DNA from: Sphaerisporangium corydalis | GTDB lineage: Bacteria; Actinomycetota; Actinomycetes; Streptosporangiales; Streptosporangiaceae | NCBI RefSeq assembly: GCF_025506355.1 | Contig: NZ_JANZYP010000024.1 | Span: forward strand, 1 to 64,000 | Direction: 5' to 3' | DNA length: 64,000 nt | Position numbers and translations under genes: made by a program | Notes under the pieces: generated by a model | What the model was told of the DNA's origin: nothing | Seen by the model: the letters and a program-made list of their open reading frames with translations, nothing else | Database searches by the model: none | Part shown: positions 4,642 through 54,351 of the stretch, one piece after another | How the letters are laid out: each line of letters opens with the position of its first letter | Position numbering within the stretch: position 1 is the stretch's first letter

Positions 4642-5873
4642 AGCCCGAGAGCCTGCTGGCGGACACCCTGCGCGACTGGTCCAGGGAGGCGGAGGTCCCC
4701 CACGACCTCGCGGACCGGGCCCTGCGGGGGCGGACCCGGCACCGGTTGAGGCGGACCGCCTCGGCCGCGATCCTGACGGCCGCCGTGGTCGCCGCCGGGG
4801 TCGTCGTGCCCCAGCTCGTCCGGGACCAGCGCGCGGTCACCACGACGGCCGGTCCGTCGGACGAGATCCGGATCAGCGTGGCGCCCTCCGAGCCGGCCGA
4901 GACCGACGTGCGCACGGACACGGAGAACTCGCCGCCGGTGAGGCTCATCGCGGCCGGGCGGGTCGCCGTCTCCGCCTACACCATCGTCAGGGCGGAGAAG
5001 CTCCCCGATGAGATGGTGCATTACCGGTACACCTGGTACCTGTACGACCCGGCGGCCGGGACGTACGAGAAGACCCCCTGGGCGAAGCTGGACGTCGCGC
5101 CGGGCCTGAAGTACGCGGCCGTGCTGGAGGACGCGCTGCCGGTCCGGCGGGTCGGGATCGTCGACACCTCCACCCGCGCGATCGTGAAATGGATCGGCCT
5201 GGACCACCCGGTGGCCGACGTCGCCTGGTCCCCCGACGGCACGCGGCTGCTCACCACGGCCTACGACCGGGACCCGGACGTCCGCCTCGACTACACGGCC
5301 GAGGGGCGGCACGAGCCGGCGTCCCCGTCCCGCAGCGGGTTCCACCTCGTGGACGTGAACTCCGGCGCGGCGGAGTTCCACGCCCAGCCCGAGCCGCGTA
5401 CCGAGAACATGTGCCCCTCCGACAGCGACCTGGGCCCCTTCCACTGGACCGACGACGGCGCGCTGATCTGGGATTCGACGTGCACCACCCCGTCGAAGAC
5501 GTTCTACGACCTCCAGGGCGCCCCGCACGATCCGCCGAACGGGTGGATCCATCCGTGGATGAGCTCGGAGGAGGCGGGGATCTCCCCCGACGGGAGGTTG
5601 TACGCCGACGGCGGGGCACCTCCCGGCCCGCAGACGAGGGTGCGGAACGTCGAGACCGGGGAGATCGCCGGGACGCAGACGATGTTGCAGCTTCTGGCCT
5701 GGGCGGACGACGAGCACCTGATCGGGCTCGGGTGCGCGGGGAAGTGCGAGGACGAGTTCCACAGCGGGCTGGCGCTGGTCGGCGTCGACGGTGAGCCGGT
5801 CACCCGGTTGTCGGCCGATCAGAAGAACTCGGACTCACCGGGAAGCTGGCGGCCGATCTTCACCCGCCGCTGA
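4638..5873 (+). CDS. Membrane-anchored beta-propeller (PD40/WD40-like) protein coupled to the sigma factor
   Basis: The 411-residue protein has about 41 cytoplasmic residues, one transmembrane helix near 42-60, and a large extracytoplasmic part. That part has repeats resembling PD40/TolB propeller blades (VADVAWSPDGTRLL, WTDDGALIWDS). Two cysteines sit close together in GCAGKCEDEF, and another in ENMCPSD. The gene overlaps the sigma factor by four bases, which suggests a regulatory partner or sensor for it. No HxxxCxxC zinc anti-sigma motif is present, so any anti-sigma action would be of another type. Function is inferred from position only. Confidence 0.75.
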   Translation: MKPESLLADTLRDWSREAEVPHDLADRALRGRTRHRLRRTASAAILTAAVVAAGVVVPQLVRDQRAVTTTAGPSDEIRISVAPSEPAETDVRTDTENSPPVRLIAAGRVAVSAYTIVRAEKLPDEMVHYRYTWYLYDPAAGTYEKTPWAKLDVAPGLKYAAVLEDALPVRRVGIVDTSTRAIVKWIGLDHPVADVAWSPDGTRLLTTAYDRDPDVRLDYTAEGRHEPASPSRSGFHLVDVNSGAAEFHAQPEPRTENMCPSDSDLGPFHWTDDGALIWDSTCTTPSKTFYDLQGAPHDPPNGWIHPWMSSEEAGISPDGRLYADGGAPPGPQTRVRNVETGEIAGTQTMLQLLAWADDEHLIGLGCAGKCEDEFHSGLALVGVDGEPVTRLSADQKNSDSPGSWRPIFTRR

Positions 5874-18549: not shown

Positions 18550-18622
18550 GCCCCCGTAGCCCAATGGCAGAGGCAAACCCCTTAAAAGGGTTCCAGTGTG
18601 GGTTCGAGTCCCACCGGGGGCA
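18550..18622 (+). tRNA. tRNA with UAA anticodon (Leu by anticodon), class I shape
   Basis: A complete 73-nt cloverleaf is present. The acceptor stem is GCCCCCG with CGGGGGC, and the discriminator is A. The D arm is GCC/GGC with loop GG. The anticodon stem is AACCC/GGGTT with loop CTTAAAA, so the anticodon is TAA at 18583-18585. The variable loop is five nucleotides, and the T arm is GTGGG-TTCGAGT-CCCAC. CCA is not encoded (CCC follows). A UAA anticodon reads UUA, a leucine codon. Bacterial tRNA-Leu normally has a long variable arm, so this short form is unusual, and its charging specificity is uncertain. It is the only tRNA gene I see in the window. Confidence 0.85.
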
Positions 18623-18729
18623 CCCGGCCGACTATATGAAACGACCCGCTGGCAGTAACGCACTCCCGCGCCTATATCCTTGTCGGTTTGCCGCCGGTCG
18701 CGTGCGTTTATCGCGAGGGTCCAAACCGG

Positions 18730-52719: not shown

Positions 52720-52763
52720 CGGGGCCTCCGGCTCCGGGGCGAGGCGTTCTCGGCTATGCTCGG

Positions 52764-53023
52764 CGGCAAAGCTGTGACGAAGTCAAGTAGGCCGGGACCA
52801 CGCGAGTCACGAGAGAGCCGCCGGAGCTGGAAAGGCGGCCTCGCCCCCCGGCCGAAGACCCTTCCGAGCTGCGGGGAGGAACGGCGGCGCCATCGTGGCG
52901 GCCGTCCAATGCCCCGCCGGACGGCTCCCGTGACCGGGCCGCGACGAGGTCCCGTCTCCGGCGGGACGAAGGTGTGGTGGCACCGCGAGTAAGAAGTCCC
53001 TGCTCGCCCACACTCTGCAGGGA
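52764..53023 (+). promoter_or_regulatory. T-box riboswitch (translational type) for aspartyl-tRNA synthetase
   Basis: A -10-like TATGCT lies at 52755-52760. Stem I has basal pairs GTGAC (52774-52778)/GTCAC (52806-52810) with G-A motifs inside, then AAGTA at 52785-52789 and a candidate Asp codon GAC at 52796-52798. A conserved AGAGAG precedes a stem GCCGCC/GGCGGC (52817-52839). The antisequestrator has helix GTGTGG (52972-52977)/CCACAC (53008-53013), a seven-base bulge TGGCACC, and helix GCGAG (52985-52989)/CTCGC (53003-53007). The TGGC in the bulge would pair with a tRNA end GCCA, matching the G73 of tRNA-Asp and tRNA-Asn. The alternative hairpin TCCCTGC (52997-53003)/GCAGGGA (53017-53023) sequesters the ribosome binding site. 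Confidence 0.88.
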
Positions 53024-53028
53024 TTCCT

Positions 53029-54351
53029 ATGAGCTTCAGGTGTGGAGTGGCCATGCGAATTCTTTCCTCCCAGGTGTCCAAGCATGTCGGGGAAGAGGTG
53101 CGCGTCGCCGGGTGGCTGCATCGCGTGCGCGCGTTGAAGAAGGTGACCTTCGCCGTGCTGCGGGACCGTGAGGGGCTGATCCAGGTGATCGCCGCCGAGC
53201 CCGGCCTGATGCAGCGCCTCGCCGAGCTTCCCGAGGAGACCGTGATCGAGGTCGTGGGCACCGCCACGGCGAACCCGCAGGCGCCGGGCGGCGTGGAGAT
53301 CACCTCGCCGTCGGTGACCGAGCTCTCCGACCCGGCCGTCCCGCCGCCCTTCGACATCTACCGCCCGGTGGTGTCGGCGAGCCTGCCGACCGTGCTGGAC
53401 AACGCGGCGGTGGCGCTGCGCCACCCCCGGCTGCGGGCGCCGTTCGAGATCTCCGCCGCCTCGGTGGCGGGCTTCCGACGCGCGATGGAGCGGCTGGACT
53501 TCACCGACGTGCACACCCCGAAGGTGGTGTCCTCGGCCACCGAGTCCGGGGCCAACGTCTTCGCGCTCGACTGGTTCGGCCGCAAGGCCTACCTCGCGCA
53601 GTCGCCGCAGTTCTACAAGCAGACCCTGGTCGGGGTCTTCGAGCGGGTCTACGAGGTCGGGCCGGTCTTCCGCGCCGAGCCGCACGACACCGCGCGGCAC
53701 CTCGCGCAGTACACCAGCCTCGACGCCGAGCTCGGCTTCGTGACCGACCACCGCGACGTGATGGCCGTGGTCCGCGAGGCGGTGGCCGACATGGTCTCCA
53801 CCGTCGCCGAGCGCGCCGCCGGCGCGGTGGAGCTGCTCGGCGTGGAGCTGCCCGACGTGCCGGCCGAGATCCCGTCGATCCACTTCGCCGACGCGCAGGA
53901 GCTGCTGGCCCGCGAGACCGACGAGGACCCGCGCGGCGAGCCGGACCTGGCCCCCGCGCACGAGCGGTGGCTGTGCGACTGGGCGATGCGCGAGTACGGC
54001 TCCCAGTTCCTGTTCGTCAGCGGCTACCCGATGGCCAAGCGGCCGTTCTACACCCACCCCGACCCCGAGCGGCCCCAGTACTCCAACAGCTTCGACCTGC
54101 TGTTCCGCGGTCTGGAGCTGGTGACGGGCGGCCAGCGGCTGCACCGCCACTCCGACTACCTGGCGGCGCTGGCGGCGCGCGGGGAGAGCCCGGAGCCGTA
54201 CGCCGGGTACCTCGCCGCGTTCGCGCACGGCATGCCGCCGCACGGCGGGTTCGCCCTCGGCCTCGAGCGCTTCGTCGCCCGCCTGACCGGGGCGGACAAC
54301 ATCCGCTGGACCACCCTGTTCCCGCGCGACCTGCACCGCCTGGCCCCGTGA
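53029..54351 (+). CDS. aspS: Archaeal-type aspartyl-tRNA synthetase, T-box regulated
   Basis: The 440-residue class II synthetase has an N-terminal OB-fold anticodon domain (about 1-110) and a catalytic domain. Motif 2 lies in FRAEPHDTARHLAQYTSLD, and motif 3 in GGFALGLERFVARL. It lacks the GAD insertion of bacterial AspRS and resembles the short archaeal/eukaryotic type. Such enzymes may be non-discriminating and also charge tRNA-Asn. Two starts are possible: ATG 53029, five bases after the T-box-controlled site GCAGGGA, and ATG 53053 after GGAG. The T-box supports the first. A second AspRS elsewhere in the genome is likely but cannot be seen here. Confidence 0.9.
   Translation: MSFRCGVAMRILSSQVSKHVGEEVRVAGWLHRVRALKKVTFAVLRDREGLIQVIAAEPGLMQRLAELPEETVIEVVGTATANPQAPGGVEITSPSVTELSDPAVPPPFDIYRPVVSASLPTVLDNAAVALRHPRLRAPFEISAASVAGFRRAMERLDFTDVHTPKVVSSATESGANVFALDWFGRKAYLAQSPQFYKQTLVGVFERVYEVGPVFRAEPHDTARHLAQYTSLDAELGFVTDHRDVMAVVREAVADMVSTVAERAAGAVELLGVELPDVPAEIPSIHFADAQELLARETDEDPRGEPDLAPAHERWLCDWAMREYGSQFLFVSGYPMAKRPFYTHPDPERPQYSNSFDLLFRGLELVTGGQRLHRHSDYLAALAARGESPEPYAGYLAAFAHGMPPHGGFALGLERFVARLTGADNIRWTTLFPRDLHRLAP

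Follow-up and report, generated by a model that had tools for sequence, protein, structure and literature searches.

The window analysed here is a stretch of 64,000 nucleotides from Sphaerisporangium corydalis. It carries aspS2, a gene for an archaeal-type aspartyl-tRNA synthetase (AspRS), and a 5' leader in front of it that matches the T-box family of Rfam (RF00230). The features of the locus are the following, given as coordinates, strand and description with its basis:

52755..52760, +, putative -10-like element TATGCT just upstream of the leader, read in the sequence
52765..53014, +, T-box leader RNA, RF00230 match (model positions 1-219)
52770..52870, +, Stem I, coordinates and pair counts
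52770-52772/52868-52870, +, Stem I base helix, unsupported in the present alignment
52779-52782/52861-52864, +, Stem I helix, supported by pair counts
52785-52789, +, loop-E motif AAGTA, read in the sequence
52790-52795/52848-52853, +, Stem I upper helix, uncounted, the MAFFT alignment being out of register there
52802-52806/52840-52844, +, Stem I upper helix, supported by pair counts
52812..52833, +, AGAGAG bulge (52812-52817) and apical loop, aligned to the AGAGA motif and apical loop of RF00230
52817-52822/52834-52839, +, Stem I upper helix, supported by pair counts
52857..52859, +, specifier codon GAC (Asp), directly 3' of the loop-E GAA at 52854-52856, from the covariance-model alignment, the invariance of GAAGAC and the discriminator bases
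52871..52917, +, Stem II (52871-52876/52912-52917) with internal-loop motif, pair counts
52923..52940, +, Stem IIA hairpin GGCUC/GGGCC, three pairs with compensatory change
52949..52967, +, Stem III GUCCCG/CGGGAC, compensatory change in five of six pairs
52972..53013, +, antisequestrator, made up of A1, bulge and A2, all 11 pairs in most leaders
52972-52977/53008-53013, +, helix A1 GUGUGG/CCACAC, paired in 100% of cells
52978-52984, +, T-box bulge UGGCACC, 7 nt, read in the sequence
52985-52989/53003-53007, +, helix A2 GCGAG/CTCGC, read in the sequence and conserved in the leaders
52997..53023, +, alternative helix UCCCUG (52997-53002) with CAGGGA (53018-53023), modest support
53008..53045, +, sequestrator, CCACAC 53008-53013 with GUGUGG 53040-53045 over the Shine-Dalgarno sequence, minimum-energy folds
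53044..53047, +, Shine-Dalgarno sequence GGAG, 5 nt before the ATG at 53053, read in the sequence and mostly paired in the free ensemble
53053..54351, +, aspS2, archaeal-type aspartate--tRNA(Asn) ligase, 432 aa, NF003483 and TIGR00458

The aspS2 product scores 551 bits against NF003483 (cut-off 353) and 367.2 bits against TIGR00458, which is 1.2 under the cut-off of 368.4. Its Pfam domains are an OB-fold and the class II core only, with no bacterial GAD domain. A reading made from the letters of this DNA (the sequence-only reading) had named the gene as an aspartyl-tRNA synthetase; the enzyme is an AspRS, although of the archaeal type (AspRS2) and not the ordinary bacterial AspS. No bacterial AspRS over the cut-off was found in the window genome, and the same is true of its sister genome G130. 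The bacterial enzyme is also present in 55 of the 59 genomes of the family that encode AspRS2. In the sister genome G183 the gene order is hisS-aspS-cyclophilin-rarA. At the corresponding place in the window genome (G000:C77:40948-41095, L267) hisS is followed by the cyclophilin gene; the matched blocks lie 146 bases apart, and no remnant of aspS stands between them. In G130 the same gap measures 114 bases. The loss of bacterial aspS is real and is not a hole in the assembly. Since it is missing behind hisS, the T-box would control the sole AspRS found in the genome. The search of the genome for an asparaginyl-tRNA synthetase (AsnRS) gave no match besides two AsnA-like paralogs. These relatives of AspRS2 and AsnRS (G000:C83:29794-30708 and G000:C87:77374-78282) have no anticodon domain. 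GatB is present; with no AsnRS, AspRS2 is therefore expected to make Asp-tRNA-Asn too, and its family model suggests that the enzyme is nondiscriminating.

The leader was matched by cmscan along the whole of the RF00230 model (1-219 of 219) with E = 2.4e-11 and 55.6 bits; scored genome-wide, the same match has E = 7.2e-11. The Rfam cut-off for RF00230 is 93 bits, and a scan at the gathering threshold reports nothing at the leader. The sequence-only reading had put forward a T-box and named this model as a check: the full-length match agrees with it, the score lies below the cut-off. None of the T-box matches across 201 genomes of the family reaches 93 bits. The low score thus characterises the lineage, not this one copy, and annotation at that threshold would miss all of them. 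The window genome contains two T-boxes, the aspS2 leader and one before ileS (L001, G000:C46:148493-148742), in which the specifier AUC stands in the context GAA-G-AUC-A. Upstream of the aspS2 leader, a TANNCT-like hexamer recurs at the -10-like position in most aligned leaders; a generic sigma-70 scan found no promoter, and TATGCT is a candidate -10 element by its position.

AspRS2 is encoded in 59 of the 201 family genomes, and a homologous leader lies before 56 of these 59 genes (the exceptions are L026, L095 and L099). Across species genomes the leader pattern was found in at least 118 stretches. AspRS2 lies downstream in 110 of these, and five of the eight others end before the gene would. 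Among the matches listed are Streptomyces, Kitasatospora, Nonomuraea, Streptosporangium, Microbispora and Amycolatopsis, and further Catenulispora, Nocardiopsis, Rhodococcus rhodnii and two Chloroflexota MAGs. In a whole-class sample searched for the genes only, AspRS2 matched at E <= 1e-60 in 36 of 395 genomes. The type had been described as apparently rare in actinobacteria; this is wrong, as the Asp T-box is widespread and common in actinomycetes. Decayed copies occur in Streptosporangium canum, Streptomyces typhae, S. cupreus and Sinosporangium siamense (L173, L169, L228 and L248), in which the leader stands alone, runs into a truncated gene, or has lost its gene. The AspRS2 proteins fall into two subfamilies that are about 37% identical, both matching NF003483, while their leaders are 80-90% identical outside gaps. 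In L158, L165 and others, leaders that are nearly 90% identical precede proteins of only about 37% identity. Either the sensor or the gene may have been exchanged behind the other.

Covariation was analysed in 37 diverse leaders over 51 pairs, leaving out helix 52790-52795, where MAFFT is out of register. Of all cells 92.0% are paired, and 22 of the 51 pairs change on both sides, in 77 cells. None of 500 shuffles reached any of these measures, and when the partners were slid by one to three columns only 4-8 two-sided pairs remained, against the 22 real ones. The covariation is clear and beyond chance. In Stem II 99% of cells are paired and one pair changes on both sides. Of 140 leaders, 131 have every one of the 11 pairs of the antisequestrator, and the other nine lack one. 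Helix A1 takes several forms in these 140 leaders: GUGCGG/CCGCAC in 103, GCGUGG/CCACGC in 12, GCGCGG/CCGCGC in 10 and the GUGUGG/CCACAC of the window in three, with a few mixed. A match to the covariance model and compensatory changes in the antisequestrator are both present, and the analysis of homologous leaders that the sequence-only reading had called for upholds its claim of a T-box. The leader at 52765-53014 is a genuine T-box and belongs to a riboswitch class that is already known.

The motifs named at the outset, AAGTA in Stem I and AGAGAG before a stem, are both in place, and AGAGA is invariant in the 37 leaders. By alignment to the model, the AGAGAG bulge and the apical loop would form the platform of interdigitated T-loops by which a long Stem I contacts the tRNA elbow. 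The specifier had been sought in a GAC at 52796-52798. That triplet belongs to the 5' strand, immediately above helix 52790-52795, and lies outside the specifier loop; the true specifier is the GAC at 52857-52859 on the 3' strand. GAAGAC is invariant in the 37 leaders, and the codon agrees with the amino acid of the downstream gene. tRNA-Asp(GUC) ends in G73-CCA, which fits the UGGC of the bulge, as had been predicted for a tRNA with G73. The tRNA-Asn also has G73; an Asn specifier was rejected, as the specifier loop holds no AAC, and of the earlier assignment to Asp or Asn only Asp stands. The T-box is specific for Asp by its specifier and its discriminator pairing. Besides the score below the Rfam cut-off, two observations count against an Asp T-box. 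Compared with the ileS T-box of the same genome (GAA-G-AUC-A), the specifier loop (GAA-GAC-N) lacks one base, which puts the codon in a shifted frame. In 25 of 140 leaders (L083, L086, L092, L097 and many from Streptomyces) the bulge reads UGGU instead of UGGC; such a bulge could match G73 only through a G-U pair, unless the discriminator differs. Elsewhere in the window, ARAGORN places a short tRNA-Leu(UAA) at 18550-18624, 75 nt with a CCA end and without a long variable arm. A tRNA-Leu should carry such an arm. Similar short 'Leu' tRNAs with anticodons UAG (contig C104) and CAA (contig C133) occur in the genome, all with a like T-arm.

The antisequestrator had been proposed as two helices flanking a seven-base TGGCACC, and it is found as GTGTGG/CCACAC and GCGAG/CTCGC around the bulge at 52978-52984. 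A competing hairpin that pairs the ribosome binding site had also been proposed. It is likewise found, the second GTGTGG at 53040-53045 overlapping the GGAG at 53044-53047. GUGUGG thus occurs twice, at 52972-52977 in A1 and at 53040-53045 running into the Shine-Dalgarno sequence, and the two copies exclude each other as partners of CCACAC at 53008-53013. The unconstrained fold picks the second, with positions 53044, 53045 and 53047 paired and 53046 free. When A1 and A2 are imposed the energy is -33.9 instead of -36.6, a cost of 2.7 kcal/mol, and 53046 and 53047 become partly free. The sequestrator duplex has -12.7 kcal/mol (z = -3.4 against shuffles); a shorter stretch gives a like fold in the sequestrator part, with unremarkable overall stability (z = -1.5). 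In related Streptosporangiaceae the anti-Shine-Dalgarno duplex is often similar to that of the window. Many leaders from Streptomyces show a duplex that does not clearly surpass shuffled sequence, and there the Shine-Dalgarno sequence could be held by a small local hairpin instead. In these predictions the sequestrator differs in form from lineage to lineage and its exact form is not conserved, which counts against the proposed switch. The alternative helix reads UCCCUU/AAGGGA in relatives, with 91% of cells paired and, in three leaders, a two-sided change of one pair. A pseudoknotted sequestrator made of UCCCUG/CAGGGA and CCACAC/GUGUGG is geometrically possible; covariation of its first helix is modest.

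On these structures the switch would be a strand exchange, in which CCACAC pairs either with the GUGUGG of the antisequestrator or with the identical GUGUGG over the Shine-Dalgarno sequence. Stem I would read the tRNA-Asp anticodon GUC by the specifier GAC, and the platform of AGAGAG and apical loop would grip the tRNA elbow. The 3' end GCCA of uncharged tRNA-Asp would then pair with UGGC (52978-52981) and stabilise A1 and A2, drawing CCACAC away from the Shine-Dalgarno sequence so that aspS2 is translated. With charged tRNA-Asp, A1 would stay unstabilised, CCACAC would pair with 53040-53045 and the ribosome binding site would be closed. We infer the tRNA binding, the dependence on charging and the level of control. 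We propose, with a probability of roughly 0.92, that the aspS2 leader is a tRNA-Asp-sensing T-box riboswitch acting on translation initiation.

Three other explanations were weighed against this reading. Because the specifier loop is one base short relative to the ileS T-box, ACC (Thr) at 52858-52860 is also thinkable as the specifier. In this frame GAA would again be followed by the usual spacer of one base, as in GAA-G-AUC-A, and the base after GAC, which is C, A or G among relatives, would give synonymous Thr codons. A leader for this other tRNA is nevertheless very unlikely. All three tRNA-Thr found (GGU, CGU and UGU) have U73, which is unable to pair with UGGC, whereas tRNA-Asp has G73; almost every locus has an AspRS as the regulated gene, and GAC is unchanged throughout the aligned set. 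The Thr frame was rejected on the mismatch of U73 with the bulge. The leader might instead be a degenerate, non-functional relic, given its score under the Rfam cut-off and the decayed copies known elsewhere. This is hardly credible for a leader whose lineage keeps its helices through compensatory changes relative to the family (GUGUGG/CCACAC in A1, GUCCCG/CGGGAC in Stem III) and whose downstream gene is the sole AspRS.

The remaining explanation concerns the level of control. The alternative helix 52997-53002/53018-53023 is conserved and is located where transcriptional T-boxes have their terminator. In a Chloroflexota relative, a Thermomicrobiales MAG (L231, leader 5665-5760 and downstream, minus strand), a long GC-rich, terminator-like hairpin CGCCCCCUCGUC/GGCGAGGGGGCG stands at this place and is followed by CGUGCGUUUUUU with a UUUUUU run; RF00230 matches over the Stem I of this leader, which appears to be a transcriptional version of the Asp T-box. 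In the window and its actinomycete relatives, by contrast, the helix has five or six pairs and a loop of about 15 nt, without a U run, and a better helix covers the Shine-Dalgarno sequence. The terminator scan of the window leader is empty at the alternative helix and found no intrinsic terminator; its only match overlaps the start codon, with its tail GAATTCTTTC inside the gene. Transcriptional control of aspS2 is accordingly judged improbable. With no intrinsic terminator and a sequestrator over the Shine-Dalgarno sequence, translational control, as the sequence-only reading had it, is the best reading, and the output of the Asp T-box in actinomycetes is most likely translational.

T-boxes of actinobacterial ileS genes are translational and belong to class II (Seliverstov 2005, PMC1262725; review PMC7583486). 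The aspS2 leader resembles them in having no terminator, a hairpin that sequesters the Shine-Dalgarno sequence and an antisequestrator with a UGGN bulge, and it comes from the same phylum. Pairing of the Shine-Dalgarno sequence in the alternative to the antisequestrator, a class II trait, is provided by the computed CCACAC/GUGUGG duplex. The aspS2 leader differs from the ileS T-boxes in its GAC specifier for tRNA-Asp, instead of AUC for tRNA-Ile, and in its gene, AspRS2; from the ileS T-box of its own genome it differs in the specifier loop shorter by one base. A short or ultrashort Stem I is typical of class II, although not obligatory, whereas this leader has a full-length Stem I, complete with AGAGAG and apical loop. 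A long Stem I with an elbow platform is found in few translational T-boxes (PMC7583486), and the aspS2 leader is unlike most of them in keeping it.

Firmicutes Asp T-boxes are transcriptional as far as they have been described, whereas the aspS2 leader has no terminator. It shares with them the specifier, the amino acid and the kind of gene. Asp T-boxes are best known from Firmicutes, and GAC makes up 94% of Asp specifiers (TBDB, PMC7778990); in C. acetobutylicum one of three aspS genes is T-box regulated (PMC2494555). An archaeal-type or other second AspRS has been described in Actinomycetales as an extra synthetase, in hosts that have no AsnRS and use GatCAB (PMC4206432, 2014). The window gene is likewise an archaeal-type second AspRS of bacteria, but it stands behind a T-box and, in this genome, has taken the place of the bacterial enzyme. 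A literature search, mainly of open-access papers, found no paper describing an Asp T-box in actinomycetes. As far as this search shows, the class is known, the combination of Asp, probable translational control and a long Stem I is uncommon, and the member and its context are new.

A single lineage of Asp T-boxes with a long Stem I may span Actinomycetota and Chloroflexota, acting on transcription in a Chloroflexota relative and on translation in actinomycetes, and standing before two AspRS2 subfamilies of about 37% identity. In the window lineage AspRS2 would then have displaced the housekeeping aspS, with one riboswitch governing the supply of Asp-tRNA-Asp and, via GatCAB, of Asn-tRNA-Asn. 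We give this wider picture an even chance.

In the literature searched, the known actinobacterial T-boxes are those of ileS, mostly with a cut-down Stem I, and the Asp set adds a widespread group with a full Stem I whose output is probably translational. This group is useful for asking why a long Stem I is kept or lost. Translation of the archaeal-type AspRS is very probably controlled by an Asp T-box, and most notable is that this T-box-controlled AspRS2 replaces the housekeeping aspS in the window lineage. That lineage offers a natural experiment, since a backup synthetase, together with its riboswitch, has taken over there as the sole AspRS. It allows a direct test of whether charged tRNA-Asp continues to repress an enzyme that is now essential.
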